Positions 40,247 through 63,642 of a DNA stretch of 64,000 bases are shown piece by piece. The DNA is taken from positions 744,001 through 808,000 of the forward strand of contig CANNCA010000001.1 in assembly GCA_947503005.1 (NCBI GenBank), in the 5' to 3' direction. The notes under the pieces were generated by a model that saw only the letters and a program-made list of their open reading frames with translations, ran no database searches and was not told the origin of the DNA. This DNA comes from an uncultured Flavobacteriaceae bacterium. GTDB taxonomy: Bacteria; Bacteroidota; Bacteroidia; Flavobacteriales; Flavobacteriaceae. The position numbers and the translations under genes were made by a program. Every line of letters begins with the position of its first letter. Position 1 is the first letter of the stretch.

Positions 40247-41635
40247 CTATCTGTTCATCTCCGTAAAATACTTGTAGAAATACGGTATTGTTTCAATTCC
40301 TTTGAGGTAATTCCATACTCCAAAATGTTCGTTGGGGGAGTGGATAGCGTCGCTATCCAACCCGAAGCCCATTAAAATAGTTTTACTTTTCAATTCCTTT
40401 TCGAACAAAGCAACAATGGGAATACTGCCTCCGCTGCGCTGTGGAATCGGCTTTTTGCCAAAGGTGGTTTCGTAGGCTTTTGAGGCTGCTTGATAACCAA
40501 TGGTGTCAATAGGAGTTACATATCCTTGGCCACCATGATGGGGCGTAACTTTAACTTTGACTCCCTTGGGAGCGATGTTTTCGAAATGTTCTTTAAACAG
40601 CTCTGTGATTTCCTTCCAATCTTGATGCGGTACCAAGCGCATAGAAATTTTGGCATAGGCTTTACTAGCGATTACTGTTTTGGCGCCTTCGCCAATGTAA
40701 CCGCCCCAGATGCCATTTACATCTAAAGTTGGTCTGATAGAATTGCGTTCATTGGTGGTGTATCCCTTCTCTCCATAAACGGTCTCGATTTCCAAGGCAT
40801 CTTGATAGTCCTTTAAAGAAAAAGGAGCTTTTGCCATTTCGGCCCTTTCTTCGTTTGAAAGTTCTTCAACCTTAGCATAAAAACCGGGAATGGTAATGTG
40901 GTTATTATCATCATGCAAACTTGAAATCATTTTCGTAAGAATATTTATCGGGTTTGCAACCGCTCCACCATATAATCCCGAATGTAAATCTCTATTTGGC
41001 CCAGTTACTTCGACTTCTACGTAGCTTAAACCTCGTAATCCGGTAGTAATGGATGGCACGTCATTGGCAATCATTCCCGTATCGGAAATTAAAATAATAT
41101 CATTAGCTAATTTTTCTTTGTTGTTGGCTACATAAACAGCCAAGTTATTACTGCCCACTTCTTCTTCACCTTCAATCATAAATTTCACGTTACAGGGCAG
41201 CTGGTCATTCTTCACCATATACTCCAATGCTTTGACATGCATGTACATCTGTCCCTTATCGTCACAAGATCCACGGGCGAAAATCGCACCTTCGGGATGA
41301 ATTTCTGTTTTCTTAATCACGGGTTCATACGGTGGGGAATCCCATAATTCTAGTGGATCGGCAGGTTGTACATCATAATGTCCGTAAACCAGCACCGAAG
41401 GCAATTTTACATCGATAATTTTTTCACCATAAACGATTGGGTAACCTTCAGTTTCATGAATTTCCGATACATCACAACCCGCTTCAAGCAATGCTTTTTG
41501 AACCGCTTCGGCGGTATTGAGAACATCTTGCGAAAAAGCAGGGTCCGCACTTACTGAAGGTATCTTTAAAAGCTCACAAAGCTCATTTATAAAACGTTCT
41601 TTGTTTTGTGTGATATATTCCTTTGGGTCTTGCAT
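40247..41635 (-). CDS. M20-family dipeptidase
   Basis: A 462-residue dinuclear zinc peptidase. VLVYGHYDVQPADP (near residue 82) and GSCDDKGQMYMH (near 122) supply ligands and the catalytic Asp, MIEGEEEVGS (near 159) holds the general-base Glu pair, and a dimerisation domain lies at about 205-360. The end SGGSIPIVALFE and DAIHSPNEHFGVW completes the M20 pattern. No signal peptide is seen, so it cleaves dipeptides in the cytoplasm. It lies just left of the tRNA-Leu and is the last chromosomal gene before the second island. Confidence 0.9.
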   Translation of the reverse strand: MQDPKEYITQNKERFINELCELLKIPSVSADPAFSQDVLNTAEAVQKALLEAGCDVSEIHETEGYPIVYGEKIIDVKLPSVLVYGHYDVQPADPLELWDSPPYEPVIKKTEIHPEGAIFARGSCDDKGQMYMHVKALEYMVKNDQLPCNVKFMIEGEEEVGSNNLAVYVANNKEKLANDIILISDTGMIANDVPSITTGLRGLSYVEVEVTGPNRDLHSGLYGGAVANPINILTKMISSLHDDNNHITIPGFYAKVEELSNEERAEMAKAPFSLKDYQDALEIETVYGEKGYTTNERNSIRPTLDVNGIWGGYIGEGAKTVIASKAYAKISMRLVPHQDWKEITELFKEHFENIAPKGVKVKVTPHHGGQGYVTPIDTIGYQAASKAYETTFGKKPIPQRSGGSIPIVALFEKELKSKTILMGFGLDSDAIHSPNEHFGVWNYLKGIETIPYFYKYFTEMNR

Positions 41636-41715
41636 TCCGATTTTTGTTTATCAGTTATTAAAATTACAAAAAGAACTTTTGGGCATCTATTATTTAAAGA
41701 ATTGATTTTTTAATT

Positions 41716-41723
41716 TATATTTG
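41716..41723 (+). promoter_or_regulatory. -7 promoter element TATATTTG of tRNA-Leu
   Basis: Exact TAnnTTTG match 21 bases before the mature tRNA start; the initiation point would be near 41730. No well-spaced TTG is visible upstream. Confidence 0.5.
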
Positions 41724-41744
41724 CAGCCCGAATTATTGGGATAT

Positions 41745-41826
41745 GCAGGCGTGGTGGAATTGGTAGACACGCTAGACTTAGGATCTAGTGCCGCAAGGTG
41801 TGAGAGTTCGAGTCTCTCCGCCTGTA
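41745..41826 (+). tRNA. tRNA-Leu (anticodon UAG)
   Basis: Complete cloverleaf. The acceptor GCAGGCG pairs with CGCCTGT (one G-U). The D-arm contains GGTAGAC, the anticodon stem TAGA/TCTA closes the loop CTTAGGA (anticodon TAG), a long variable arm follows as in class II tRNAs, and the T-arm is GAGAG-TTCGAGT-CTCTC. The discriminator base is A; CCA is not encoded. It has its own promoter and terminator. The DNA to its right is accessory, so its 3' end is a probable attachment site. Confidence 0.95.
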
Positions 41827-41833
41827 CAAAGGG

Positions 41834-41864
41834 AAAAGCCGACTTTTTAAAAGTCGGCTTTTTT
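41834..41864 (+). terminator. Rho-independent terminator after tRNA-Leu
   Basis: A long perfect inverted repeat (aaaagccgactttt / aaaagtcggctttt) is followed by a T-run, eight bases after the tRNA. Confidence 0.85.
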
Positions 41865-41869
41865 GATTT

Positions 41870-41889
41870 GGTACAACATAGGTACAACA
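41870..41889 (+). repeat. Direct repeat GGTACAACA x2 beside the tRNA-Leu
   Basis: Two identical 9-mers at 41870-41878 and 41881-41889, 11 bases apart start to start (one helical turn). Short direct repeats next to a tRNA attachment site are typical of arm-binding sites of tyrosine integrases. Confidence 0.5.
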
Positions 41890-41978
41890 ATTGTTAAATT
41901 TTCTTCTCTTCTTAAAAATAGGATTAATTGATATCATTTGAATTCAAAATAGAACTCCCAAATCTTACCCAAAACTTT

Positions 41979-42049
41979 GCGCATGGTTCCTGTCCTGTTT
42001 TTGTAGTGTTCCGGCAGATAAGCGTTTAGCAAAAACAGGAGAGGGCGCA
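41979..42049 (-). repeat. Inverted element-end copy S1 (variable arms, conserved core)
   Basis: A 71-bp unit has 11-bp perfect arms, TCCTGTTTTTG (41993-42003) and CAAAAACAGGA (42030-42040), around a 26-base core. Outer flanks are GCGC on one side and AGGGCGCA on the other. It is homologous, in inverse orientation, to the unit at 43946-44015. The core and flanks are conserved between the two copies while the arms are different yet self-complementary in each. Weaker similarity continues outward for about 25 bases (shared TAAGATTTGGG). It ends three bases from the stop of the mobilization-linked gene at 42053. The region 41890-41978 shows nothing else. Confidence 0.7.
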
Positions 42050-42052
42050 TAC

Positions 42053-42520
42053 CTACTTTTGATTTGGAACACTGTCTTTCTTCTTAGTCCATTTTATATA
42101 ATCTTCATAGATAATGGGATGGTCTTCAAAATATCCTCTCATGCTCTCATAATCTTCTTTTTTACCTTCTATGAGAGCAGCTTTGTTTCTATCTTTAAAG
42201 TGGATGAAGTGATAGCCGAAATAACTCAGTGAAAGAACTTGAGTTGATACTACAATACAAAACAAGGTCGCCAGCCAATTTGGGGTTATTCTTGCCAATT
42301 TTACTTCTTGCCTTACTTCTGTTATTTTCTCGTTGTACATCATCACGGCTTTCTTCTGTTCCTTTGTAAAGCCTTTTATGTAGTTTTCGATACTTGAAGT
42401 GTCCATATTTATTTTCAAGTCCTTGAAATTCTTTGACAAGGCTTCCAACTTGCTTATCGATTTATGGAACCCTTCAATTTCCTCGGTCAAAAGTCCCATC
42501 ATCTCCTCCATCTTTTTCAT
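42053..42520 (-). CDS. Mobilization-linked coiled-coil membrane protein
   Basis: The 155-residue product has an N-terminal amphipathic coiled coil (about 1-80; LLTEEIEGFHKSISKLEALS), one membrane helix near 88-108 (NWLATLFCIVVSTQVLSLS) and a charged C-terminal tail (about 110-155). Proteins of this make-up commonly follow relaxase genes in Bacteroidetes mobilizable elements and may link the relaxosome to the membrane or a coupling protein. It starts 17 bases after the relaxase stop. No enzymatic motif is visible. Confidence 0.7.
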   Translation of the reverse strand: MKKMEEMMGLLTEEIEGFHKSISKLEALSKNFKDLKINMDTSSIENYIKGFTKEQKKAVMMYNEKITEVRQEVKLARITPNWLATLFCIVVSTQVLSLSYFGYHFIHFKDRNKAALIEGKKEDYESMRGYFEDHPIIYEDYIKWTKKKDSVPNQK

Positions 42521-42537
42521 AATTCTATTCTTTACGT

Positions 42538-43407
42538 TTATATTCCTATGCCCCGGTCCAGCGTTCTCTTAATAACTCTTTTCAAGACCCTCTTTGCAAT
42601 ACTGGTCGCTATATTCGTGCTTAGCTCCGTTGTCTTTCCCGCTAGCTTGATCGTGTTCCCTTTTTTAAGTCGAATCCCCATTATGGAATTATTGGCTATT
42701 TGAACAGCCAATTTGCCTCCCGACATCGAACGGTGTACTTCGCTTCCTTTTAGGTTTCGTCCTTTAAATTCAAAGCGAAACCCCTGTAACTGGTTTTGCC
42801 TATTGATACTTGGTAAGACCTTTATCCCGTTTTGTTTCATGTATTTGATATACTGATCAAAGTCTTTTGGTCTCTTCTCCGTCATTACTTTTTCGTGGGT
42901 CTGTTTGATTTCTTTGCGTATTCTTTTTAGTTCGCTGAGTTTTTCCGCTTGTATTTCCCTTGCAGTGGTAAGTCCCATTTCCTTGGCAACCTTCTCGGCC
43001 GCATATTGACTTCTCTTTCCGATGAAGTTGTCCTTATAGGCCGTGCCATCGAAATTGATCCTATTGACATAAACATGTACGTGGGTATGCTGTTTGTCCC
43101 GATGCACGAAACCTATTCCCTGGTGCTCTTCAAGTTTCATTTCGGCAATGAATCTTTGGGTTAGCTCTTGGAGCCGTTCACTGGATAAATCCTTCCCATC
43201 TTCAATAGTCGGGCTTAGTACAAAACTCAGGCTGTTGTTCTTTGTTCTTATGTTCTGCTCTTGGATGATCTTGAATTCCTCTGTGATCTCCCTTGGGTTA
43301 TCCCCTGCCAGATGTTGCTTATATACAACCTCTGCATTCTTCTCCTGATTCCATCCATAACCCATGGATGCTCCTGTATGCGATATCGATTTTCCCTTTC
43401 CTATCAT
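42538..43407 (-). CDS. Relaxase/mobilization nuclease
   Basis: A 289-residue DNA-nicking relaxase of the MobP/MobV-like Bacteroidetes group. The three-His metal motif HTHVHVYVNR is at residues 107-116 (His107, His109, His111, Asn115). MIGKGKSISHTGASMGYGWN at the N-terminus and GGKLAVQIANN at the C-terminus match mobilization proteins of this phylum. It would cut one strand at oriT and stay attached to the 5' end during transfer. Its start overlaps the stop of the MobC-like gene by four bases. At 289 aa it is a short type without helicase or primase domains. No conjugation machinery is seen, so transfer would depend on a helper. Confidence 0.87.
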   Translation of the reverse strand: MIGKGKSISHTGASMGYGWNQEKNAEVVYKQHLAGDNPREITEEFKIIQEQNIRTKNNSLSFVLSPTIEDGKDLSSERLQELTQRFIAEMKLEEHQGIGFVHRDKQHTHVHVYVNRINFDGTAYKDNFIGKRSQYAAEKVAKEMGLTTAREIQAEKLSELKRIRKEIKQTHEKVMTEKRPKDFDQYIKYMKQNGIKVLPSINRQNQLQGFRFEFKGRNLKGSEVHRSMSGGKLAVQIANNSIMGIRLKKGNTIKLAGKTTELSTNIATSIAKRVLKRVIKRTLDRGIGI

Positions 43408-43700
43408 TTTTTGAAATTGTACAGATGCATTCGTATTTCATTGGCGAGCTGTTCTACTTCTTTTGCCAATTTGGGATTCCGCTTTTTGAACATATTGCCT
43501 ATCCTTGTAAAGTTGTTCTTGTATTTCACGAGCATCGCATATTGTTCCAATTGCTGCGAAGTAAGCCCTTCTACGATGTCGTTTTCAAAAGCCGCACTCC
43601 TGCAATATTCGGATAGGGAAAGCCCTGCCTTTTTGGCCTTTAACTTGAGCATTTTTTTTTCATAAATGCTGCAACGAAACTGAATGAACTCTCGCTTCAC
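43404..43700 (-). CDS. MobC-like relaxosome accessory protein
   Basis: A 98-residue protein with a ribbon-helix-helix N-terminus (MKREFIQFRCSIYEKKMLKL then KAGLSLSEYCRSAA) and the MobC block LVKYKNNFTRIGNMFKKRNP. It binds oriT and guides the relaxase. The start codon is GTG. It is the first gene of the module mobC-relaxase-membrane protein, and the oriT-like inverted repeats lie immediately upstream. Confidence 0.85.
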   Translation of the reverse strand: MKREFIQFRCSIYEKKMLKLKAKKAGLSLSEYCRSAAFENDIVEGLTSQQLEQYAMLVKYKNNFTRIGNMFKKRNPKLAKEVEQLANEIRMHLYNFKK

Positions 43701-43714
43701 CTTTTTCCTTTTTT

Positions 43715-43768
43715 CTTTTGCGACCTACGGGAGCAAAAGCAAGATTGTCATGACAATGACACATCTTG
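43715..43768. other. Candidate origin of transfer (oriT)
   Basis: Directly upstream of mobC lie two nested dyads. The first is CTTTTGC (43715-43721) with GCAAAAG (43733-43739). The second is CAAGAT (43740-43745) with ATCTTG (43763-43768), enclosing a perfect 14-bp palindrome ATTGTCATGACAAT (43744-43757). Position and structure suit an oriT or the autoregulatory site of MobC. The nick site cannot be assigned by eye. Confidence 0.45.
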
Positions 43769-43945
43769 AATTGCCAACCGACTTCAAATTAACCGTTAGG
43801 CAGAGTAAGAGAAGAAAGTGCTTTGATTTTTAACTATAGTAGAATGAGTATTTTAAGGAATATTCAAGGAAAACCAGTAATCAGTGGAAATACAAAATCC
43901 AATAAGAGGACAAGTTCTAACCGGGACTAAAAAGAAAATAGCAAG

Positions 43946-44015
43946 TGCGCCCTATTTCGATTTTAATTTACGCTTACCTATCTGGACACTATAAAATCGA
44001 AACAGGATCCGGCGC
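43946..44015 (+). repeat. Inverted element-end copy S2 (variable arms, conserved core)
   Basis: A 70-bp unit has 11-bp perfect arms, TTTCGATTTTA (43955-43965) and TAAAATCGAAA (43992-44002), around a 26-base core. It shares about 18 of 26 core bases, both outer flanks and an outward extension with the unit at 41979-42049, in inverse orientation. In-frame reading of both copies gives a similar 20-residue peptide, so part of the conservation could be coding. It lies 246 bases before the mobC start. The spaces 43769-43945 and 44016-44329 contain no convincing gene. Confidence 0.7.
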
Positions 44016-44329
44016 GGTCAAGTTATGGTAAGATTTGGGTTATAAATATTATTGAATAAAGTAAATGCCTTTATATTTCTGTCCTAACGTATATCATGGT
44101 TTATGTAAACATTGCGTATCCAATAAAAGGTAACTTAAAGAAACTACTAAAGGAGACCACGATTGTGATACTTCCGGTATTGATAAAAGATGCTTTCGTA
44201 ATAGTCCATTTACAGAACGACTTTGGACGGAATTAGAACACTGCCATTAAAAATTTAGGGTTTAGTAATTTGGCTCTAGGCAATTGATTCAAGTACAAAT
44301 CTTAAGGTATTACCTCTTTAAATAATTAA

Positions 44330-44357
44330 AACTGCCCCAAGTTAGCTTGGGGCAGTT
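44330..44357 (-). terminator. Rho-independent terminator of the lipoprotein operon
   Basis: A perfect 11-bp stem, aactgccccaa / ttggggcagtt, with a 6-base loop. Read on the minus strand a T-rich tail follows. It lies about 110 bases after the stop of the lipoprotein gene at 44470. Confidence 0.75.
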
Positions 44358-44469
44358 CATAAAACCTTCCTTTTTCATACGGAGAAACTTTTATCAAGGA
44401 ATCGGGAAGATTCTCAACACTAACACCAAAATGTGGGGAATGCTAGTGCGTTATTGCCGATAAGTGGGT

Positions 44470-45381
44470 CTAATTCTTTTCAAAAGTCAATAGATCGGTG
44501 CCACCGTTTCCTCCGCTCACATGTTTAAGTTCTATTTTAGTGGCAGAATGTGAGATAATATCCCAGTCTTCTGAAAGTTCTGCGAAATCCGCGGGAGAAG
44601 CGAAGAAAATATTAAAATCAATATCGCCAGAAGTGTTTCCCGACGAGTCGCCTCCGGAAAAATTGCCGATGGTGCAATCGTTCTTAAATCGCAGTCGGTC
44701 ATCGCCACCGATGCGCAGGTCCACTTTCGATTCCCCATTTTCCAATTCGATTTCATGAAGTGTCCATGTAGCCTCCAAATCACTAATGTCGGTGATCGTT
44801 ATCACTACTTGAATATTATTCCCGCTCCCGGATGCTTCCCAAGTGCCCGAATATTCATCATTGTTCCAGGATACGTTCATGGTGCCATCTGCAGAGAAGT
44901 CAAAAGTGTACCCGTTCAGATTATCTTCCAGGTCATTGTCATTCAACTCAAGCTTATCCACATACCATCCAGAACAGGCAGTCAGCACATCGGTCAATTG
45001 GGACACACTGCAATTGTTACAGTCGTCGTCTGAGTTGTCATCGCTCAAACTACTGCTGGAGCTATCATCGTCTGAATCGTCATTGGAGTCATCATCAATT
45101 GTAATCGACCATGTCCCAGTTGCATTATTAGTTGCATTATCGGCCACCAAGCTTCCGTCCGTATTGAAGGAGAAACCATAGCCTGTGAAATCACCAGTTT
45201 CATTTTTTTCCGAATCGATGAAATTGGTAATGACCCAAGATCCTGTAGAAACATTGTTGGTAATCGTCTCGATATCCGCTTGTAGGTTTGCAAAATTGTT
45301 GCCGTCATCGGCATCTTTGGTACATGCGGTTAAGAATAACGTCACCACACCTAAACCATAAATCAAAATGTTCTTTTTCAT
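44470..45381 (-). CDS. Asp-rich lipoprotein with lipocalin-like modules (short paralogue)
   Basis: A 303-residue lipoprotein (lipobox TLFLTAC, Cys near residue 20). The first beta module (near 47-95; GSWVITNFIDSEKNETGDFT and GTWSI) is followed by an Asp/Ser-rich linker (about 96-120) and the motif DDCNNCSVSQLTDVLTACSGW. A second lipocalin-like module then reads VDKLELNDNDLEDNLNGYTF and YSGTWEA, and the C-terminal block runs WDIISHSATKIELKHVSGGN. The protein is probably on the surface or in the outer membrane. The acidic linker suggests cation binding. It is a paralogue of the gene 25 bases upstream, with the modules in a different order. Confidence 0.7.
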   Translation of the reverse strand: MKKNILIYGLGVVTLFLTACTKDADDGNNFANLQADIETITNNVSTGSWVITNFIDSEKNETGDFTGYGFSFNTDGSLVADNATNNATGTWSITIDDDSNDDSDDDSSSSSLSDDNSDDDCNNCSVSQLTDVLTACSGWYVDKLELNDNDLEDNLNGYTFDFSADGTMNVSWNNDEYSGTWEASGSGNNIQVVITITDISDLEATWTLHEIELENGESKVDLRIGGDDRLRFKNDCTIGNFSGGDSSGNTSGDIDFNIFFASPADFAELSEDWDIISHSATKIELKHVSGGNGGTDLLTFEKN

Positions 45382-52618: not shown

Positions 52619-54391
52619 CTAGTTTATAATTTCAGCAACACTTCCACAAGTAAGCATCTGCTCACCGTAATAAGGGTTGCTGATTGCTTTATCCTTGCTT
52701 ATCCAAAATGCCCCTCTATAATTATTTGCCATTGGACATTTTTGAATATATACCTTTGAGTTTAGCCCTTTAATAGCCTTAACAATCGGTACAAAATTCT
52801 GGTTCAATACCACAAAAAGGTCACGCTGATTTTCAATGTCATCACTTTCAGAAATAGACATCAACATTTTTTTGATTTTGGAAATGTGGGCTTGTTCCAT
52901 TTTACCTAAACCCGAATCAGAAACTGGCTCTAGTATTCCAAAGGTTTCCTGTGAGAAAGACAACACTTTGTGAGCATCACTAGCTACAAAGGCATCTTTC
53001 ATTTTAAGATAAGGCGTTAAAGCAGACCGAAATGCAACCTGAACTGTTTCTGGTAGTTCCATTTTCATTGCCGAACTATCATCGGTTTCACTACCTGTAT
53101 TCTGCATACCTAAATGTCCTTCGTGTCCTTTCATTGTTTTTCCACCTGATTTATTCATCATTGAATTCTTACCCTGTAATTGTGCAGCTGCATCAACCGT
53201 GAAAGTCCCATTAGTTACTATTTCATCGCCTTCTTGTAATCCGGAAGCGACCATAAAAATATCACCAACTCGATTGCCAAGAGTTACTTCCTGCATTTCA
53301 AAAATGGGTTCATTTGGATTTGTCTTAAGGTAAACTAATGAGCGTTCGCCCGTCCACAATACCGAACTCGCTGGAATACTAAGTTGTGCTTCTGAGCTAT
53401 TCGATTTACTTTTGATTCTGCCTGTGACAAACATTCCCGGCTTAAAAAGGCCTTTATTGTTTTTCAAATTGGCCCGAACTACGACAGTTCTCGTTTTAGT
53501 ATTCAGAACAGGGTCTATAAATGAAACCGTGGCATCAAATACCTCGTTGGGATAAGCATTGGTTGTAACCTTGATTTTTTGGCCTTTCTTAAATTCCGAA
53601 ATCTGGCTTTCATAAGCATCAAATTCTGCCCATACCGAATTTAGATTGCTCACCTTTACGATGGGTTGCCCTTGCTTTACGTAATCGCCTTCAGAAGCCA
53701 TCTTTTCAGATACCGTACCGCTAACCGTTGCGTATATGGGAAAGTTTTCTCTAACCTTCCTTGATTCTTCGATACTATTAATTTGGCTTTCCGTTAGCTT
53801 CCAAAGTTTAAGTTTATTGCGTACCGCTTTATATAATTCTGGTTGCGATGCTTTAAGCGAAGCTGCGGTTATCAATTCTTGCTGAGCCGCTACTAAATTT
53901 GGCGCATAAATGGTTGCCAAAAGTTGCCCTTTCCTTACTTCCTGACCCTCAAAGTTGACATTGAGCCGTTCAATCCTACCATCAAAATAACTGGCTTGAA
54001 TGGCGTTTTCCTCTTCATTCATTTTGATTTTTCCTGAAAGCGAAATCATATTTTCGCTGTCTGCCGATGCATTTCCTACAGTAGTGGTTTGGATGTTTGC
54101 CAATGCCATTGCATTTTTAGTCATCTTTATTTCATTCAGTGCAAGGCCATCAGCACTAGATTCTGCCGGAATTAAATCCATACCGCATATAGGACAGTCG
54201 CCTGGTTCTGGTTGCATAATTTGTGGATGCATAGAGCACGTCCACATTTGTTCAGCACTTTCGGCAGAATGGTCGTGCGTTTCGGTCATTGCCGCCTCGT
54301 CTTTTTCGATAGAATTGCCACCAAAAATGAGCCACCCACCAAACAGTCCTATGACAGCTGCGATACCGATGTATAAAATGTTTTTATTCAT
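52619..54391 (-). CDS. CusB-like RND periplasmic adaptor with fused DUF3347
   Basis: A 590-residue membrane-fusion protein: membrane anchor (about 5-25), heavy-metal-binding box (CSMHPQI then [10 protein letters not shown], near 50-75), barrel-sandwich hybrid and hairpin (about 120-240; LNVNFEGQEVRKGQLLATIY) and a beta-barrel (about 250-400). At the C-terminus it carries DUF3347 (about 450-590), with CPMANNYRGAFWISKD and PYYGEQMLTCGSV. That domain is also present as a separate lipoprotein in this operon. It links CusA to TolC and may pass Cu(I)/Ag(I) to the pump. It is the last gene of the operon. Confidence 0.88.
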   Translation of the reverse strand: MNKNILYIGIAAVIGLFGGWLIFGGNSIEKDEAAMTETHDHSAESAEQMWTCSMHPQIMQPEPGDCPICGMDLIPAESSADGLALNEIKMTKNAMALANIQTTTVGNASADSENMISLSGKIKMNEEENAIQASYFDGRIERLNVNFEGQEVRKGQLLATIYAPNLVAAQQELITAASLKASQPELYKAVRNKLKLWKLTESQINSIEESRKVRENFPIYATVSGTVSEKMASEGDYVKQGQPIVKVSNLNSVWAEFDAYESQISEFKKGQKIKVTTNAYPNEVFDATVSFIDPVLNTKTRTVVVRANLKNNKGLFKPGMFVTGRIKSKSNSSEAQLSIPASSVLWTGERSLVYLKTNPNEPIFEMQEVTLGNRVGDIFMVASGLQEGDEIVTNGTFTVDAAAQLQGKNSMMNKSGGKTMKGHEGHLGMQNTGSETDDSSAMKMELPETVQVAFRSALTPYLKMKDAFVASDAHKVLSFSQETFGILEPVSDSGLGKMEQAHISKIKKMLMSISESDDIENQRDLFVVLNQNFVPIVKAIKGLNSKVYIQKCPMANNYRGAFWISKDKAISNPYYGEQMLTCGSVAEIIN

Positions 54392-54397
54392 ATCAAA

Positions 54398-54886
54398 TTA
54401 TTTATTTTCCAATCGTTTAATCATTTGCTTCATTTCCTCAATTTCCTTTTTCTGTGCCTTAATGATATCCTCTGCCAGTTTCTTCACTTCAGGGTCTTTA
54501 ATATCAGCACGTTCACTCGTTAAAATCGCAATAGAGTGATGGGGAATCATAGCTTTCATCCAGAGAACGTCCCCAACTGTTGTCTTTTGTTCTCTTACTA
54601 AAGTCAAAGCCCCAACAAATAGGACTAGGCTGCCTACCAAAATGGCAATATTCTTCTTTTTATCGGTATACATATTCCGCATAAAAAACCACATTATTAC
54701 GGCCATAGTCGCTATGCCAAGGCATACCATATAAAAGCGGGTCAAGCTAAAAAATACGTGGTCTAAAGAATATGTGTTTAAGTACATTGTGATGTACATA
54801 GCAATGAATGAGCAACCGAGCATCAAGTAAAATTTAGTGTACTTACTTAATCCATTGTTCTCGTTTTTGTGTTCTTGTGAATTCAT
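54398..54886 (-). CDS. DUF305 membrane protein
   Basis: A 162-residue protein with three helices in the first 105 residues (FYLMLGCSFIAMYITMYL, YMVCLGIATMAVIMWFFM and AILVGSLVLFVGALTLV) and a C-terminal DUF305 four-helix domain with the key block LWMKAMIPHHSIAI. The His pair may bind metal. Proteins of this make-up are frequent in copper and mercury operons. It is 6 bases upstream of CusB in the same transcript. Confidence 0.85.
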   Translation of the reverse strand: MNSQEHKNENNGLSKYTKFYLMLGCSFIAMYITMYLNTYSLDHVFFSLTRFYMVCLGIATMAVIMWFFMRNMYTDKKKNIAILVGSLVLFVGALTLVREQKTTVGDVLWMKAMIPHHSIAILTSERADIKDPEVKKLAEDIIKAQKKEIEEMKQMIKRLENK

Positions 54887-54912
54887 AAATTTTGGTTTTT
54901 ATAGTTAAAGAA

Positions 54913-57414
54913 TTATTTAATTGATTTCGTTTTAAGTCTAAGTGCATTGGCAATTACGGATACGGAACTGAAACTCATTGCTAAAGCGGCAATCATAGGG
55001 GATAATAAGATTCCGAAAAACGGGTAAAGTAAGCCCGCGGCTATTGGAATGCCCAACGTATTATAAATGAGTGCAAAAAACAGATTCTGCTTTATATTTC
55101 TCATAACAACATCGCTTAGATTTCGTGCTTTAACAATACCTTGTAAGTCGCCCTTGACCAATGTTAGTGCTGCACTTTCAATCGCTACATCTGTTCCCGT
55201 TCCCATTGCTATACCAACATCACTTTTTGCCAATGCAGGGGCATCATTGATACCATCACCCGCCATTGCGACTACGTGACCATCATTCTGCAATTTTTCA
55301 ACTTCCTGTAATTTATTTTCAGGTAACATTCCAGCCTTGAAATCAGCCAGGTTGAGCTCTTTTGCCACGGCTTGGGCTGTATCGTGATTATCGCCTGTAA
55401 GCATTATGACATCAATATTTTTGTCCTGCAATGCTTTGATAGCTTTGGCACTTGTTTTCTTGATTTTATCACCTATAACAACATATCCAACAGTCTTGCC
55501 ATCAATAGCCAGATAAGAAACCGTCTTGCATTGCTTTTGATAGGTTTGTGCCTCATTTTCCATAGCCTCTGAAAGTTTCGCATTTGCTACTTCCATCATT
55601 TTAGTATTACCCAAAGACAGTTCTTTTCCATTGACCTTTCCTTCAACACCCTTACCAGTTACAGCATTAAAACCAGTTGCCTTTAGAAATTCAGTTTGTT
55701 GTTCCCTTCCGTATTTAACTGTTGCTTCAGCGAGTGGATGCTCACTTTGGCTGTTCAGGGAAACGATATATTGTAGTACTTCATTTTCAGTAAAGCCATT
55801 ATCAAAAGCCCTAACTTTTTCAACTGTCGGTTTACCTTCCGTAATTGTTCCCGTTTTGTCAACTATGAGTGTATCTACCTTGTCCATCTTTTCGAGGGCT
55901 TCGGCATTTTTGATAAGCACGCCATTCTGTGCGCCTTTACCAACACCTACCATTACGGACATTGGTGTGGCAAGACCCAAAGCACAAGGACAAGCGATTA
56001 TTAATACAGCGATGGCATTGACCAAGGCATAAACATAGGCTGGCTCTGGCCCCCAAATTGCCCAGACCGCAAAGGTTATCAAGGCAATTATGACCACAAC
56101 TGGTACAAAATATCCCGAAACCTTATCAGCTAAATTCTGGATGGGCGCACGGCTACGACTGGCATCATTCACCATATGAATAATTTGGGATAATAATGTG
56201 TCCGAGCCTACTTTTTCAGCTTTCATTAAAAAAGACTGGTTACCGTTTATAGTACCGCTACTCACTTTATCATCCACCGTTTTGTTTACTGGAATGGGTT
56301 CGCCTGTTATCATTGATTCATCGACCGAAGTTTCCCCTTCAGTCACAACACCGTCAACAGGAATCTTATCACCTGGTTTAACTCTTAGAATGTCGCCTAA
56401 TTCAATGTCGTCAATACTCACTTCTTTTTCTTCGCCATCGACTACTTTAATGGCTTTATTAGGTGCTAACTTCAATAGCTCTTTTACTGCGGAATTGGTC
56501 TTGCTATGAGCACGAGCTTCAAGTAACTGCCCCAAAAGGACTAAAGTGAGGATTACAGTTGCAGCTTCAAAATAGACGTGAACCGTACCTGCTTCGGTCT
56601 TAAATTGGTCTGGGAAAAAGTCAGGTGTAAGCATACCTATTACACTAAATAACCAAGCTACACCAGCACCGATTCCAATGAGCGTAAACATATTGAGATT
56701 CCAAGTTTTAATACTGCGGTAGGCACGTTCAAAGAACATCCAAGTAGCATAAAACACGACCGGAATGGAAAGCACAAACTGAATCCAATTCCAATACTTC
56801 AATTCCAGAATATCATATAATGGATTATTGGTCAGCATTTCCGACATTGCTATTAAAAAGATGGGCAATGTAAATGCGACAGCTGCCCAAAACTTTTTAA
56901 GCAGTTTTCGATACGTATTTTCCTCTGCGGACATATCGGGTTCCATCGGCACTAAATCCATCCCACAAATGGGACAGCTTCCAGCTTCTTCCTTTACAAT
57001 TTCGGGATGCATAGGACACGTATATTGCGTAGCTGAAGAATTGGATAGATTTTGTTCTTCGACCAAATCCATTCCACAAACTGGGCAATCACCTGGCTTA
57101 TCATAGGTTTTGTTACCCTCACAATGCATCGGGCAATAGAACGTTCCCGTTCCTTTGCCTTTGGATTTTTCCTTCTTTTTATCCGGATTGGGATGATACT
57201 CACCTACGTTATGAATACTGTATGTGCCGCCATCTTGCATTAGAGCTTCTTGAAATTTTTCGATTGGAATATGGGATTCCATTTCAATGTTCGCCTCTCC
57301 GTTCTCTAAGTTGACGGATGTATTTGATACACCATTAACATTTTTCAATGTATTCTCAACTTTAGTTTCACAAGCCTTGCAGGTCATTCCGTTTATGTGA
57401 TATGTATGTTTCAT
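54913..57414 (-). CDS. copA: Copper-translocating P1B-type ATPase
   Basis: An 833-residue pump with an N-terminal HMA domain ([11 protein letters not shown], near residues 9-19). Two heavy-metal-binding boxes follow, each with CPMH and CPICGMDL or CPVCGMDL (near 92-120 and 133-157). Eight transmembrane helices include the transport motif [11 protein letters not shown], the phosphorylation motif [11 protein letters not shown] and [14 protein letters not shown]. It exports Cu(I)/Ag(I) from the cytoplasm using ATP. It is longer than a minimal CopA because of the two boxes. It sits between the acetolactate-decarboxylase-like gene (5 bases upstream) and DUF305. Confidence 0.93.
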
Positions 57415-57418
57415 TTTT

Positions 57419-58141
57419 TTAGCCTTTTGGTAATATTAAAATCATATTACTACCTAATTTTAAGTCATCAACGTGTCCGGCTAATTCTTCATTTTGATTT
57501 TTAAAATGCATATGCAAAAAGGTAGTATGATGAGTAAATACCGCTTGATGCGATTTGGAAAAGAAACCTATAATTTCAACTTTCTTATTTTCCTCAACAC
57601 CATTTAAACCAGATTCCTTATGCTTTTGATGGGTGTGTTCAGTATCGCCATCCTTCCAATTGATGACGTGCCAACTTAATGATTTCGCCATTCCTTCAAT
57701 TAAAAACGGAATAGGCTTTTCAGCATTGATACCTAACTGATTTGCCTGTTTTTCAATAAATGTTTCTAATTTCTTCGAAGAATCAATTGCACTTGGAATT
57801 TCAATATTCTGCCAACTGGATATTTCAGCATATACAATGAGCGATGCCTTTTTATCGAAGGTTTTATCAAAGACAAGCTTTCCAGATTGCACAGTTGAGT
57901 TAAATGCCTTACCGTCAAAAATTTGAATCTCACCTTTCAAATTTTCAAAAGCACCCAATGCGTATAAATGAGGCTTTTTTGAAAGCGAGTCCAAAGAAGC
58001 AGTCGCTTGTAAATCACCCGACATCATTGAGCGCAATGCACCTGAGTATTTTACTTCCGTATTCTGATTGCCTGAATTACAACCAACCACTAATAAGGCA
58101 AATGAAGCTACGATAAGAATTTGTTTTGATAAACGACCCAT
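57419..58141 (-). CDS. Acetolactate-decarboxylase-like lipoprotein
   Basis: A 240-residue lipoprotein (LVVGCNSG, Cys near residue 21). The body follows alpha-acetolactate decarboxylase from end to end: [19 protein letters not shown] (usually the substrate loop), [20 protein letters not shown] and, near the C-terminus, [10 protein letters not shown] with GHVDDL eleven residues on. In acetolactate decarboxylase that His-x-His plus distal His binds zinc, and the spacing is the same here. A secreted lipidated form in a copper operon cannot be making acetoin in the usual sense. It might be a metal-binding or sensing protein. The fold assignment is fairly sure; the role is open. Confidence 0.7.
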
Positions 58142-58147
58142 AGTTGA

Positions 58148-58663
58148 TTACTTCAAAGTTTCTGTGACTTTACCACATTTCAACATCTTATTCCCGAAGT
58201 ATGGATTGCGGATTTCCTCTTCTTTAGACAGCCAGTAACCGCCTTTATTGTTAAAGGCCATTGGGCAAAATTGTTTATAGACCTCACCACGAGAAAGTGA
58301 TGCAGCTACCACATCAGTCATCTTTTCCGTAACATCGGAAAATATAGTACGTTGTACTTCGATATCAGTTGTTTCTGAAATTTTAGAGAGCATACCTTTT
58401 AAATCTGCATCACCCGTGTTTTCCATTAACATTTTTGCCCCGGATTGAGCCTCATTGAAATCTGAGTTTACCAATGCGGTCTTTAAATGAATGTAGTGCT
58501 GAAATTGTTTTCCAACCTTATCATCATTAAAAGTTAATCCAGCTGTCTTGGCATTCTCAGTAACGGAATCTGAATTTTTGTTGTCATTTTTTGTTTCATT
58601 TTTACACGAAACCAAACTTGCGATAGCAAGCATTAATACTGTTGTCTTAAATAGTGTTTTCAT
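58148..58663 (-). CDS. DUF3347 lipoprotein
   Basis: A 171-residue lipoprotein (ASLVSC, Cys near residue 20). The DUF3347 domain (about 45-171) has YIHLKTALVNSDFNEAQSGA and the closing metal-type block QFCPMAFNNKGGYWLSKEEE with NPYFGNKMLKCGKV. The same domain ends the CusB protein of this operon. The Cys, Met and His pattern suggests periplasmic copper binding. It is 15 bases after TolC and 6 bases before the acetolactate-decarboxylase-like gene. Confidence 0.87.
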   Translation of the reverse strand: MKTLFKTTVLMLAIASLVSCKNETKNDNKNSDSVTENAKTAGLTFNDDKVGKQFQHYIHLKTALVNSDFNEAQSGAKMLMENTGDADLKGMLSKISETTDIEVQRTIFSDVTEKMTDVVAASLSRGEVYKQFCPMAFNNKGGYWLSKEEEIRNPYFGNKMLKCGKVTETLK

Positions 58664-58678
58664 TGCTATAATTTTAGA

Positions 58679-59899
58679 TTATTGATTTATTAAATAATTG
58701 ATGACGGCAGATTGCACATAGTACATTTGCACCGACACGATTTGATTAATTTGAAATTTTAATTGTAATTCTTGAATGTCCAGCACATCGTTAAAATCTA
58801 TTGTCCCTGTTTCATAATTCTTTATCAGAATTTCTTCAGCATCCTTTGCTTGTTTTAGATTTTTTTCCTGAGTATTGAATTTTATCCGTGCTTGATTACG
58901 TTGCGATTTTGCTTTTGCGAAAGCAGTTTCCAACGTATTTAATCGCTCATTTTTTTGAGATTCTATTTCCTGTTGTCGCAACTTGTTTTGCTTGGAAACA
59001 GAGCTATACTTATTATTGAAAATGGGTATGGAAAGTGTAACCATTGGCATCACTATATCCTTTCCGTTATCGTTAAAGTTCATCGCTGGTCGCTCTGCCA
59101 CGGGAACATAGTCTAGCCCAAATCCTAGATTTGGCGCACTTTCTTTTTGATTTAAAAGTTCTGATTGTTCTACGGATTTGTAGAGCTTGTCGTATTTAAG
59201 CAGTTCAGGATTGAGGGACAATCCTTCATCGCTAAAAACAGGGTCTTCCGATGGAATCATCATTTCCGAAACAACATCAACGACTATATCTTCTTTACGA
59301 TTCAACAGATTATTGAACACAGAATGTTCTGCGAGATATTCTTCCTGCAAAACTTCCTTTTGTTGTTGCAGTTCATTTTGTCGAATTTGCAAACGTAGCA
59401 CATCAACAGCTGAAGCTTTTCCAACTTCAACTGATGTCAATGCCAACCGCTCATAGGTTTGCAATAACTGGATATTATTGTCCAATACATTTTGCTTCGC
59501 TTTATTAGCATATAAACGGTAATACGATTGTGCAACCGAAAGTGCCAATTTGCGTTTCGCAATGGCAATTTCCACAAATTCCGTTTCTGCCATTGAACTA
59601 GCATAATTTTCCCTAGCGGTAATTGTACCGAACCAAGGCAACATTTGGGATATTGAAAAACGCGCACGTTGCGCACCTGTTCGGGTTTCGGGTTCGCTCA
59701 CAAAATAACCAGTACTAATTGTAGTGTTGGGCAATGTATTGACTTCACTTACCTTTTCTCGGGCAATATTATACCGCAATTCATACGCTTGGATATCTGG
59801 ATTGTTCGCCTCTGCTTCTTGAATATAGGATTGCAGTTCTTGTGCTTTCGCAAAAGCGGAAACAAGCAAAAGACATACTATGATTATTATATTTTTCAT
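58679..59899 (-). CDS. TolC/CusC-like outer-membrane efflux protein
   Basis: A 406-residue outer-membrane channel. The start is the ATG at 59899 (MKNIIIIVCLLLVSAFAKAQ, a signal peptide); the longer frame to 60091 would read through the cusA 3' end and is not real. Two OEP repeats are visible, with helices such as AYELRYNIAREKVSEVNTLP and LLQTYERLALTSVEVGKASA, and the second half repeats the pattern. It forms the exit duct for the CusA-CusB pump. It shares a 4-base ATGA overlap with the cusA stop. Confidence 0.9.
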   Translation of the reverse strand: MKNIIIIVCLLLVSAFAKAQELQSYIQEAEANNPDIQAYELRYNIAREKVSEVNTLPNTTISTGYFVSEPETRTGAQRARFSISQMLPWFGTITARENYASSMAETEFVEIAIAKRKLALSVAQSYYRLYANKAKQNVLDNNIQLLQTYERLALTSVEVGKASAVDVLRLQIRQNELQQQKEVLQEEYLAEHSVFNNLLNRKEDIVVDVVSEMMIPSEDPVFSDEGLSLNPELLKYDKLYKSVEQSELLNQKESAPNLGFGLDYVPVAERPAMNFNDNGKDIVMPMVTLSIPIFNNKYSSVSKQNKLRQQEIESQKNERLNTLETAFAKAKSQRNQARIKFNTQEKNLKQAKDAEEILIKNYETGTIDFNDVLDIQELQLKFQINQIVSVQMYYVQSAVINYLINQ

Positions 59900-62800
59900 T
59901 TGCTCGCTTGTTTTAGTTGAAACTCTTTTTTCATACTGAATAGCACAGGAACAACGAACAGCGTAATCAACGCTATCAGCATTCCACCAAAACTTGGAAT
60001 GGCCATTGGTATCATAATATCGCTTCCTCGACCTGTTGAAGTCAAAATGGGTAGCAATGCCAATATGGTCGTTGCTGTGGTCATTAGGCAAGGACGAATT
60101 CGCTTTTCGCCAGCTTCGACTATCGAATCACGAATCTCATTTTTGTTTTCAGGTGTATTTCGGTCAAACGTTTGTGTCAGGTAGGTCGCCATTACTACAC
60201 CATCATCGGTAGCAATACCGAACAGCGCAATGAATCCTACCCAAACTGCTACACTTAGATTTATAGTATGCATCTGAAACAAGTCCCGAAGATTTTCGCC
60301 AAAGAAATTGAAGTTTAAGAACCAGTCTTGACCATAGAACCATATCATTAAGAAACCACCTGCAAATGCAACGGCAATTCCAGTAAAGACCATTAACGAA
60401 GTTGCTACCGAACGAAACTGGAAATAAAGAATCAAGAAGATGATGATGAGTGCCAATGGAACAACTACGGACAATGTTTTTTCTGCGCGTAATTGATTTT
60501 CATACGTTCCCGTAAATTGATAGTTTATACCTTTCGGAACAGTTAATTCGCCACTATCAATTTCGTCTTTAATCAATGCCTGGGCATTTTCTACTACATC
60601 CACTTCAGCAAAACCATCCAGTTTATCAAAGAGTACATAACCTACTAAAAAGGTATCCTCGCTTTTAATGACTTGTGGCCCTTGTTCGTAACGAATATCC
60701 ACAAGCTCACCGAGAGGAACGGGATTTCCTTTTTCCACAGGTACATAGATATTTTTCAAGTCCGTTGGGTTTTCTCGTAATTCCCGAGGATAGCGTACAC
60801 GTACCGCATAACGTTCTCGACCTTCCACGGTCTGTGTTAAAGGCATTCCCCCCACGGCTACTTGCAAAATTTCTTGAACTTTCATTATCGAGATGCCGTA
60901 CCGCGCCAGTTGCTCTCTATTAATATCAATTAGCAAATAAGGTTTACCTACGATACGGTCTGCAAAAACAGCTTGTTCTTTGACACCTTCCGCCTGTTTT
61001 AGAACAGCTTCAAGCTGAAGGCCGAAATCCTCGATTTCGCTTAAATTTTGACCTTTGACTTTAATGCCCATTGGCGCACGCATTCCTGTCTGTAACATTA
61101 CCAATCGCGTTTCAATGGGCTGTAACTTTGGTGCTGAAGTAATGCCAGGTAGTTTTGTAACTCTTACAATTTCATTCCAAATATCGTCTGGACTTTCAAT
61201 TTCAGGACGCCAATTTCTATAGTACTCGCCATCATCGTCAGTAATCAATTCATCCCTTGTAACCGTAGTTTGTATTTGGGACGCTTCATAATTTGCCCCA
61301 CCTTCAACTTCGTTGTTAGGGTTGATGACCAGCTTGTTATTTTTTAGAACAAAAAGACCATCATCATTAACTTTATAACGCTCTCGTTTTCCTTCCGAAT
61401 TCATCATATATTCAGATTTATACTGAATAATATTTTCGTACATCGAGAGTGGTGCTGGGTCAAGTGCAGATTCGGTTCGTCCAGATTTACCGACTACGGT
61501 TTTTATTTCGGGTATGGTGGCAACGGCCATATCCAATTGCTGTAATATTCGTTTGTTTTCTTCAACCCCTGCGTGTGGTAAAGACGTTGGCATCAATAAG
61601 AATGAACCTTCATTTAATGAAGGCATAAATTCCTTGCCTGTATTCTGCATTATAAGAACACCGAATATGATTATAGCCGTTGGTATGGAAAGGAATAGAA
61701 ATTTATTCCGTAAAGCCCATCTTAAAATTCTTGTATAATATTTGCGGAAGACCCAAAATGTACCAAGCAATCCAAAGCACACAATACTTACAAAAATGAG
61801 GTTCATTGCAATGCTTCTGTCAAAACCTAATGGTCGCCAGTATTCCGCTAATAGGAAGACAATGGCTACCGACGAAATGATGATGTTGACCAAATTTGCC
61901 TTCGTTTCAGTCAGCTTTCCTTGTAATCCAGCAATTCCCGAAGCACCAAAGGCTATCAATATAATACCTAACCAGAACCCAGATATCATTGCTATTATAC
62001 CTGCAATTATCAAAGAAATATTTAGGATATACTTGAATGGATTTTTTAGGCTTTTCTTTCGGAATAAAAAGGCCGCAAATGGTGGGATTAAAAATAGTGC
62101 GACGATAATAGATGCCGTGAGTGCCATTGTTTTTGTAAAGGCTAATGGACGGAAAAGTTTCCCTTCGGCACCTACCATTGTAAAGACAGGAATAAAGCTG
62201 ATAATTGTGGTTAACACCGCTGTAAGGATTGCACCTGATACTTCTGTTGTAGCATTGTAAACTACTGTGTTTATTGGCAGTTTATTTCCTTCGGAATCGG
62301 TGTTTTCCATATCCAAATGCCTGATAATATTCTCGGAAAGAATTACGCCAACATCGACCATTGTGCCTATGGCAATAGCGATTCCGGAAAGTGCAACGAT
62401 GTTTGCATCTACATCGAAAAGTTTCATCGCAATAAAAACCATCAATACCGCAACAGGTAACAGACCAGAAATTAAAACAGAGGCTCGTAGGTTAAAGACC
62501 ATTATGATAATGACCAGAATTGTAATTAAAATTTCGAGCGTTAACGCTTCATTCAGCGTACCTAAAGTTTCTTGAATGAGTTCGGTTCGGTCATAAAACG
62601 GAACTATGGTAACTTGTGAAGTGCGACCATCGGCCAATTCTTTAGAAGGTAGTCCAGCACTTAAATCGTTGATTTGGTCTTTAACATTGTTAATGACTTC
62701 CATAGGATTTGCACCATATCGAGCCACAACCACACCGCCGACAACTTCAGCACCCTCTTTGTCAAGAATACCGCGTCTTGTAGCTGGACCTAAATGGACT

Positions 62801-63642
62801 TTGCCCACATCCTTTATCCTGATAGAAGTGAATTCTTTAGAGGTAACTACCGCGTTTTCTATATCTTCTATAGACTTTACATAACCTAGACCACGAACCA
62901 GATATTCAGCCTGATTCATTTCCAAAGTCTGAGCACCGATATCCTGATTACTATGTTTAACGGCTTTTACAATATCAGATAGTCCAATGTTGTACTGGCG
63001 CATCAATTCTGGATTTACGTCCACTTGATATTCCTGAACATAACCACCAATAGAAGCAACTTCTGAAACACCGCTTGCCGACGACAGCGCATATTTCACG
63101 TAATAGTCTTGAATACTGCGAAGTTCCTGTAAGTCCCATCCACCTGTAACATTGCCATCTTTATCACGACCTTCTAATGTGTACCAGAAAATCTGACCCA
63201 ATCCCGTGGCATCAGGCCCTAAAGCTGGGTTTAAACCCTCGGGCAATAGACCGCTTGGAAGTGAGTTGAGTTTTTCAAGAATTCGACTTCGTGACCAATA
63301 GAATTCTACATCCTCTTCAAAAATGATATAGATGCTCGAAAACCCAAACATTGAGGAACTTCTAATGGTTTTTACCCCAGGTATTCCCAATAAAGAAGTA
63401 GTAAGGGGATAGGTAATTTGGTCTTCAATATCCTGTGGCGAACGTCCTTGCCATTTGGTAAATACGATTTGCTGATTTTCGCCAATATCGGGTATGGCAT
63501 CTACGGCCACAGGGTTACTAGGCAGAATGCCAGTTTCCCAACCAAAAGGTGCATTTACAATACCCCAACCCACAAATAGAGCGAGCATCAGTACCGCAAC
63601 GAGTTTGTTCTCGATTAAAAATTTTATGCTTTTATTGAGCAT
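59896..63642 (-). CDS. cusA: CusA/CzcA-type heavy-metal RND pump
   Basis: A 1248-residue RND transporter with two sets of six helices (for example LNEALTLEILITILVIIIMV and VVPLALIIIFLILYFQF), the motif SGIAIAIGTMVDVGVILSEN in TM4 with the proton-relay Asp, and two large periplasmic loops. Its two HME-RND signatures, FTKWQGRSPQDIEDQITYPL near residue 63 and MPTSLPHAGVEENKRI, point to Cu/Ag or Co/Zn/Cd. An extra periplasmic stretch of about 90 residues near 745-835 makes it longer than E. coli CusA (1047). It is the second gene of the operon and starts 120 bases after the HYC_CC_PP gene. Confidence 0.93.
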   Translation of the reverse strand: MLNKSIKFLIENKLVAVLMLALFVGWGIVNAPFGWETGILPSNPVAVDAIPDIGENQQIVFTKWQGRSPQDIEDQITYPLTTSLLGIPGVKTIRSSSMFGFSSIYIIFEEDVEFYWSRSRILEKLNSLPSGLLPEGLNPALGPDATGLGQIFWYTLEGRDKDGNVTGGWDLQELRSIQDYYVKYALSSASGVSEVASIGGYVQEYQVDVNPELMRQYNIGLSDIVKAVKHSNQDIGAQTLEMNQAEYLVRGLGYVKSIEDIENAVVTSKEFTSIRIKDVGKVHLGPATRRGILDKEGAEVVGGVVVARYGANPMEVINNVKDQINDLSAGLPSKELADGRTSQVTIVPFYDRTELIQETLGTLNEALTLEILITILVIIIMVFNLRASVLISGLLPVAVLMVFIAMKLFDVDANIVALSGIAIAIGTMVDVGVILSENIIRHLDMENTDSEGNKLPINTVVYNATTEVSGAILTAVLTTIISFIPVFTMVGAEGKLFRPLAFTKTMALTASIIVALFLIPPFAAFLFRKKSLKNPFKYILNISLIIAGIIAMISGFWLGIILIAFGASGIAGLQGKLTETKANLVNIIISSVAIVFLLAEYWRPLGFDRSIAMNLIFVSIVCFGLLGTFWVFRKYYTRILRWALRNKFLFLSIPTAIIIFGVLIMQNTGKEFMPSLNEGSFLLMPTSLPHAGVEENKRILQQLDMAVATIPEIKTVVGKSGRTESALDPAPLSMYENIIQYKSEYMMNSEGKRERYKVNDDGLFVLKNNKLVINPNNEVEGGANYEASQIQTTVTRDELITDDDGEYYRNWRPEIESPDDIWNEIVRVTKLPGITSAPKLQPIETRLVMLQTGMRAPMGIKVKGQNLSEIEDFGLQLEAVLKQAEGVKEQAVFADRIVGKPYLLIDINREQLARYGISIMKVQEILQVAVGGMPLTQTVEGRERYAVRVRYPRELRENPTDLKNIYVPVEKGNPVPLGELVDIRYEQGPQVIKSEDTFLVGYVLFDKLDGFAEVDVVENAQALIKDEIDSGELTVPKGINYQFTGTYENQLRAEKTLSVVVPLALIIIFLILYFQFRSVATSLMVFTGIAVAFAGGFLMIWFYGQDWFLNFNFFGENLRDLFQMHTINLSVAVWVGFIALFGIATDDGVVMATYLTQTFDRNTPENKNEIRDSIVEAGEKRIRPCLMTTATTILALLPILTSTGRGSDIMIPMAIPSFGGMLIALITLFVVPVLFSMKKEFQLKQASK

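Follow-up and report, generated by a model that had tools for sequence, protein, structure and literature searches.

A covarying hairpin site beside the mobilization modules of flavobacterial integrated elements, possibly a single-strand origin

A site of about 100 nt, made up of an outer box, a spacer and a hairpin with a fixed loop, recurs beside mobilization and integrase genes of integrated elements in the Flavobacteriaceae, and its stem is conserved by covariation. It was characterized in a window of 64,000 nucleotides from an uncultured marine member of this family (contig CANNCA010000001.1), where two inverted copies enclose a mobilization unit. The site is possibly a single-strand (lagging-strand) origin that would turn transferred single-stranded DNA into duplex, a tentative reading to which our analysis gives a probability of about 0.42. 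Selection on a fold, proposed in an earlier note on this DNA, is borne out, the coding alternative raised there is not, and the single-strand origin is a further reading beyond those first listed.

The left hairpin, H1, lies at 41979–42049 on the + strand and the right hairpin, H2, at 43946–44015 on the − strand, the structured strand reading inward in both. Their description as inverted copies is confirmed with unchanged coordinates, and an arm search and direct reading likewise confirmed that the arms differ between H1 and H2, yet pair within each. The arms span 41989–42003 and 42030–42044 in H1 and 43951–43965 and 43992–44006 in H2 (15 nt and 93% complementary in each case), and the inner 11 bp of the stem, read directly, are perfect in both. 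DNA folding against 200 dinucleotide shuffles each gave z values of −5.07 for H1 and −3.98 for H2, with none of the 200 shuffles folding as well as either hairpin, and of −3.10 and −3.58 for the respective complementary strands. Outside the hairpins, a repeat search found a perfect 13-bp inverted pair of boxes that the earlier note had overlooked: the outer box of H1, CCCAAATCTTACC (41957–41969, + strand), which is conserved in other copies, and its exact inverted match beyond H2 (44027–44039, − strand). Pairing between the two outer boxes of a unit was rejected, since by eye the box differences in the loci L197, L081, and L083 are not compensated. The mobilization unit between the boxes measures 2,083 bp. 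Its genes lie on the − strand and comprise mobC, coding for an MbpA accessory protein (NikA-like PF21983, 43404–43700) that scores above the cut-off of NF041418, a relaxase gene (PF03432, 42538–43407) whose nearest NCBIfam model is MbpB at 98.5 bits, under the 400-bit cut-off, and, as the third gene of the operon, DUF6730 (PF20503, 42053–42520), a profile match whose stop codon abuts H1. An oriT-like region on the + strand (43715–43768) contains two inverted repeats and a nick-like CACATCTTG, with the presumed nick after 43768. Open reading frames and profiles revealed no transposase or recombinase in the window unit, only mobC, the relaxase and DUF6730 being recognized, and the window copy has no target-site duplication, its flanks (...GAACT and TTATA...) being different. 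When a stretch of about 2 kb (length 2096) was searched against the whole genome, it matched shorter relatives and a second full copy of the unit, 85% identical over query positions 7–2090 of 2096 (window 41956–44039). This copy, at G000:C1:1016901–1018971 (L081:10902–12971), directly adjoins an integrase gene and had also escaped the first reading.

The mobilization module forms the left end of an island of ~24 kb inserted in a tRNA-Leu gene (41745–41827, + strand). The 3′ part of this gene (41773–41827) is attL of the island and recurs as attR at contig positions 809746–809800, 1.75 kb past the window end, the two sharing a 51-bp identical run. The integrase, a tyrosine recombinase, is encoded at contig positions 808376–809587 (L126:12377–13588), 376 bp past the window end. 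Because the integrase and attR lie just past its end, the window holds most of the island, which has several features of an integrative and mobilizable element (IME): tRNA-derived direct repeats at both ends, together with an integrase, a relaxase and an oriT-like region. The hairpins bound the 2,083-bp unit and not the island, whose ends are the tRNA-Leu repeats. The suggestion that they are element ends thus applies to a 2.1-kb mobilization unit recurring in several integrase backbones, and not to the island; similarly, the remark that no integrase lies in between is right within the unit, but the island has an integrase at its other extremity, past the window. In L132 the same tRNA is occupied by a different island organized in the same way. 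The relatives L134–L138, where the retrieved stretch contains tRNA-Leu with no detected integrase or hairpin, are candidate empty sites; the joined flanks align past the tRNA end for 77 bases in L134, 41 in L135 and 11 in L137 but not at all (0 bases) in L136 and L138. No protein encoded right of attR has a match in these five loci. L133 was rejected as an empty site; it is occupied, since arm repeats of the type seen in the window and L132 come after its tRNA-Leu. The cargo scan, which covered the right part of the window (approximately 52619–63642, L126 620–11643), recognized an RND efflux pump, outer-membrane and fusion proteins and a heavy-metal P-type ATPase.

Conservation of the fold was assessed in two alignments. 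The first comprised 15 ends aligned without a model, from which the covariance model was then built. In these ends 98.0% of the cells paired, 35 cells carried changes on both sides compared with 10.7 in shuffles, and the covariation score was 0.318 compared with 0.109, a value that none of 500 shuffles reached; the number of double-change pairs (6) and of pair types (13) was reached by 88 and 297 of the 500 shuffles, respectively. The second consisted of 119 matches at E up to 1e-7 from 100 loci given to the model. Here 96.8% of 2,369 pair cells pair, changes on both sides occur at 16 of 20 pairs, and the covariation score is 0.373 compared with 0.131; on none of the five measures did any of 500 shuffles come as high. 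Fitting to the model biases this second alignment towards it, related and near-duplicate copies are included, and the shuffle statistics of both alignments take no account of relatedness. The further copies, which might have had arms that fail to pair, thus keep their pairing, and selection on a fold is strongly supported by the covariation in both sets. The stem contains 138 G-T cells and 22 A-C cells, an excess indicating that the folded strand is the one reading inward from the box. Across the 119 matches the loop hardly varies (TAGYGT..YC.G..AGRTAAGCGT), its first word being TAGCGT in 35 and TAGTGT in 69, and the conserved AAGCG recalls the AAGCGG word of PriA-type sites. Four copies are about 20–45 nt longer than usual (L062:7507–7629, L066:2006–2124, L068:4200–4344, and L197:7577–7697); their additional letters, which look palindromic, follow TAAGCG in the loop and suggest that small inserts are tolerated there.

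In a family-level sample of 397 genomes, the covariance model has matches in 46 (E up to 0.01). With the cut-off at 0.001, 6 of 395 genomes sampled across the order and 2 of 395 sampled across the phylum match, and every match falls in the same family; the bacterium's own genome is counted in each draw, some genomes are shared between draws, filtering is stricter in large searches, and how many of the order and phylum genomes lie outside the family is not specified. The site is likely restricted to the family. When 84,980 named species genomes were scanned for the pattern, at least 116 stretches were returned, and among the 80 matches listed most are from Maribacter, Arenibacter, Allomuricauda/Flagellimonas/Muricauda, Croceitalea, and other flavobacteria. 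Pattern matches in records titled Saccharibacteria (L198) and Clostridiales (L204), where the covariance model has no match, were taken as chance. The left hairpin has no blastn match in plasmid and phage records, and viral contigs contain no exact match to the pattern.

Mapping the covariance-model matches relative to mobilization genes showed that the fold recurs in company with them. There are 122 distinct hairpins (differing in their last 60 bases) in 100 of 123 sources, of which 83 abut mobilization or integrase genes and 39 abut none of the gene types sought. The stop codon of DUF6730 precedes 33 of the 122 by 1–22 nt, that of a MobB/DUF5712 relaxase gene 19 by 14–18 nt and that of an integrase gene 31 by 13–126 nt; three hairpins fall in two of these groups, and a convergent BfmA/BtgA-like gene adjoins three. 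As the hairpin is common to modules with different relaxases, it does not depend on one relaxase. The integrases beside hairpins have a best match of 26–100% to a query integrase. A role as integrase attachment site was discarded, because the sequence is kept beside integrases down to 22% identity and its distance to the tRNA varies.

The definition of the oriT-like region rests on 16 sequences, and a profile was then used to recognize it. One of its two inverted repeats shows compensating changes by eye, and its CACATCTTG resembles the MOBP nick consensus (C/T)ATCCTG(C/T), which in the excerpt of the source is preceded by an inverted repeat (PMC3772185). From the likeness of CATCTTG to this consensus, the transfer strand is presumed to be the + strand, which would place H1 on the nicked strand and H2 on the opposite one. 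An oriT-type match occurs within 6 kb of 54 hairpins, and in 53 of them it is on the inner side. The hairpin is on the same, presumably nicked, strand as oriT in 40 of the 54 and on the opposite strand in 14, including H2 of the window; 13 of the opposite-strand hairpins have oriT on the inner side (12 of them at 145–241 nt) and one, in L065, on the outer side. A rule that the hairpin always sits on the nicked strand was abandoned, as it is broken by these 14 and the picture is mixed relative to a second candidate oriT block. This second conserved inverted-repeat block, GAATAGCAAGAGGG plus a stem with compensating changes by eye (L083:5283, L092:7073, and others; 52 rows, some of them decoys), lies upstream of BfmA/BtgA-like and MobB relaxase genes, beside many hairpins. 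Its reverse strand reads as a stem followed by CCTCTTG and may be another oriT. With the block on the inner side, the hairpin is on the opposite strand in 33 and on the same strand in 17 of the 52 rows, decoys included. A DnaG-like primase (Toprim plus zinc ribbon) precedes mobC in the single-hairpin modules L071 (1604–2467), L077, L078, L088, L090, L094, and L095; no such primase turned up in the window or in the two-hairpin units L061, L062, L081, L085, and L087.

The observations agree with a strand-specific site that would act in cis with oriT, independently of the relaxase family, and a single-strand origin is the known thing with these properties. The covariation, the near-invariant loop, the fixed polarity, the pointing toward oriT, the gene-free spacing of 28–39 nt to oriT in four loci and the association with different relaxases argue for this reading. 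Against it stand the 14 of 54 opposite-strand hairpins, H2 among them, which do not fit simply, the 39 of 122 that abut none of the gene types sought, the lack of a blastn match to the left hairpin in plasmid and phage records, the mixed orientation to the GAATAGCAAGAGGG block, the outer box and a nicked strand presumed from sequence likeness. In the mechanism we propose, the relaxase would nick oriT and one strand would leave, the hairpin would fold on the departing strand, a host polymerase or primase would lay a primer at the folded hairpin, and the element would become duplex again in the recipient or the donor. The second hairpin of a two-hairpin unit might serve the other strand, comparable with the one ssi per strand of RSF1010, and this is the weakest step. 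The nicked strand, the single-stranded state of the DNA and the priming itself are what we infer and did not observe. Single-strand origins are best known from rolling-circle plasmids, and the ssiA and ssiB sites of RSF1010 face each other. To our knowledge, the outer box has no role in any known sso.

The closest parallels lie in other kinds of elements. Lagging-strand origins, as characterized in the excerpt of PMC5714925, need host machinery only and not an initiator. Like sso1 of ICEBs1, the window site would be a structured single-strand site beside the relaxase gene of an integrated element; the excerpted ICEBs1 study describes an sso1 fragment that spans the 3′ end of the relaxase gene nicK and works in one orientation only (PMC4595007). 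In contrast to sso1 with its three predicted stem-loops, the window site has one hairpin and an outer box. Its TAGYGT loop word is like the CS-6 word TAGCGT carried by a plasmid sso in the excerpt of PMC4598088, a weak likeness of six letters in a ~27-nt loop. Unlike in ICEBs1 and the rolling-circle sso, the function here is putative and some copies are on the other strand; the phylum is different, and no sequence relation has been shown. RSF1010 resembles the window unit in having one site per strand, with ssiA a hairpin, in the excerpted source (PMC4434180), whereas the window unit has no primase gene and many of its relatives have a single hairpin. Among Bacteroidota IMEs, NBU1, NBU2, Tn4555, and Tn4399 share a site-specific integrase, a MobP-type relaxase, an oriT of their own and MbpA/MbpB-type mobilization, and the excerpt of the source mentions no such hairpins for them (PMC5704250).

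A different view of box and hairpin is that they are border sites of a mobilization cassette, an oriT-relaxase unit exchanged or inverted between integrase backbones by some recombinase, by the relaxase or by plain homologous recombination in the conserved sites. We consider this unlikely, although several features of the two-hairpin units agree with it. In pairwise comparisons of nine such units, each taken with 600 flanking bases (63 at one side of L214), similarity between backbones mostly started and stopped within 3 bases of the boxes. It ran past the boxes by 35–37 bases at one end in L061-L085, 10 in L061 and the window, 5–6 in L214-L227 and 4 in L062-L087; several comparisons with L214 and L062 stop short, and breaks occur inside the more distant units L062, L214, and L227. 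Only L081, L087, and L156, which share an integrase lineage, align on for up to hundreds of bases, and L061 and L062 share a separate outer block. The unit also occurs in either orientation: the integrase is on the mobC side in L081 and L087 and on the DUF6730 side in L061 and L085. Shorter stretches retain both boxes. The breaks at the boxes would fit a dedicated process or, equally, ordinary recombination through conserved sites, which predicts the same pattern. Most hairpins, moreover, are single and have no partner near oriT, a second, opposite-strand kind making up 12 of the 122, and the window unit encodes no recombinase and its copy has no target duplication. Transposon ends were rejected on the lack of a transposase in the unit and the commonness of single-hairpin copies. 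Insertion-sequence ends and integron attC sites likewise present inverted ends or foldable sites with variable arms; the window unit differs from insertion sequences in lacking a transposase and, at the window copy, a target duplication, and from integrons in that the island integrase, the one compared, scores 45.4 bits against a 265-bit integron-integrase cut-off. A transposase-free cassette, in which the oriT-relaxase unit would hop or flip between integrase backbones via folded single-strand ends during conjugation, is very improbable in our judgment; if it were true, the transfer process itself would do the recombination. Some shorter arrangements were seen in addition. Three stretches in integrase-linked elements of the same genome (L082:4940–5324, L083:5121–5505, and L084:6276–7197) have one hairpin and a second outer box that has no hairpin, followed by TTGCAGCACGAAAC; oriT comes after it in L082 and L083, and a BfmA/BtgA-like gene lies between in L084. 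L068 has three hairpins in a row on one strand (at 3179, 4200, and 6025), of which two match weakly, next to a partial match to a relaxase; they may be repeated insertions that have decayed. In L197 a 0.8-kb stretch (6889–7697) with two facing hairpins and oriT, and no gene recognized, is possibly a minimal non-autonomous unit.

Proximity to oriT raises the alternative that the hairpin belongs to the transfer origin and is bound there by the relaxase or accessory proteins, as a relaxosome or termination hairpin. The inner position of oriT in 53 of 54 cases agrees with this, as do L070, L170, L182, and L223, where oriT follows the hairpin by 28–39 nt with no gene between (the L170 locus ends close by, and a relaxase may lie beyond), and the ATCCTG found in 58 of 119 matches, which is the MOBP nick core in the excerpt of PMC3772185. 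The same motif is absent in 61 of 119, however, and sits in the 5′ arm of the stem and not after an inverted repeat; the distance to oriT spans 28 to 3,526 nt in same-strand copies beside modules, and the site is common to MbpB-like and MobB relaxase modules, which leaves a transfer-origin part rather improbable. Much the same standing belongs to a structured RNA or insulator, a transcribed hairpin that would end or control transcription at module borders. Hairpins often lie between convergent genes or right after an integrase stop, and among the 116 better-matching ones the nearest outer gene (tRNA genes not counted) points toward the hairpin in 78; in 34 it points away, so that no gene there reads into the folded strand, and 4 are at an edge. 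Four consecutive T follow within 7 nt of the stem in 2 of 119, and an Rfam scan of window positions 41500–44500, with E up to 1, gave no family for the hairpins. That the hairpins are gene fragments, as a short shared peptide reading between H1 and H2 had suggested, deserves almost no credence: any one reading frame stays open in at most 35 of the 119 copies, copy lengths run from 96 to 145 without regard to threes, several copies being ~20–45 nt longer, and the changes preserve pairing.

Searches of the literature, including under DUF6730/DUF5712, the box and loop words, pBI143 and MbpA/BtgA, turned up no paper that appeared to describe the hairpin site. A single-strand origin or a transfer-module border is a known kind of thing; this family of sites, characterized by its box, loop and placement, seems to be new. 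With more than 100 members that combine a covarying stem and a fixed loop, it offers a well-defined site for experiments, a marker by which mobile elements of marine flavobacteria can be found, and a clue to the shuffling of mobilization modules between integrases.
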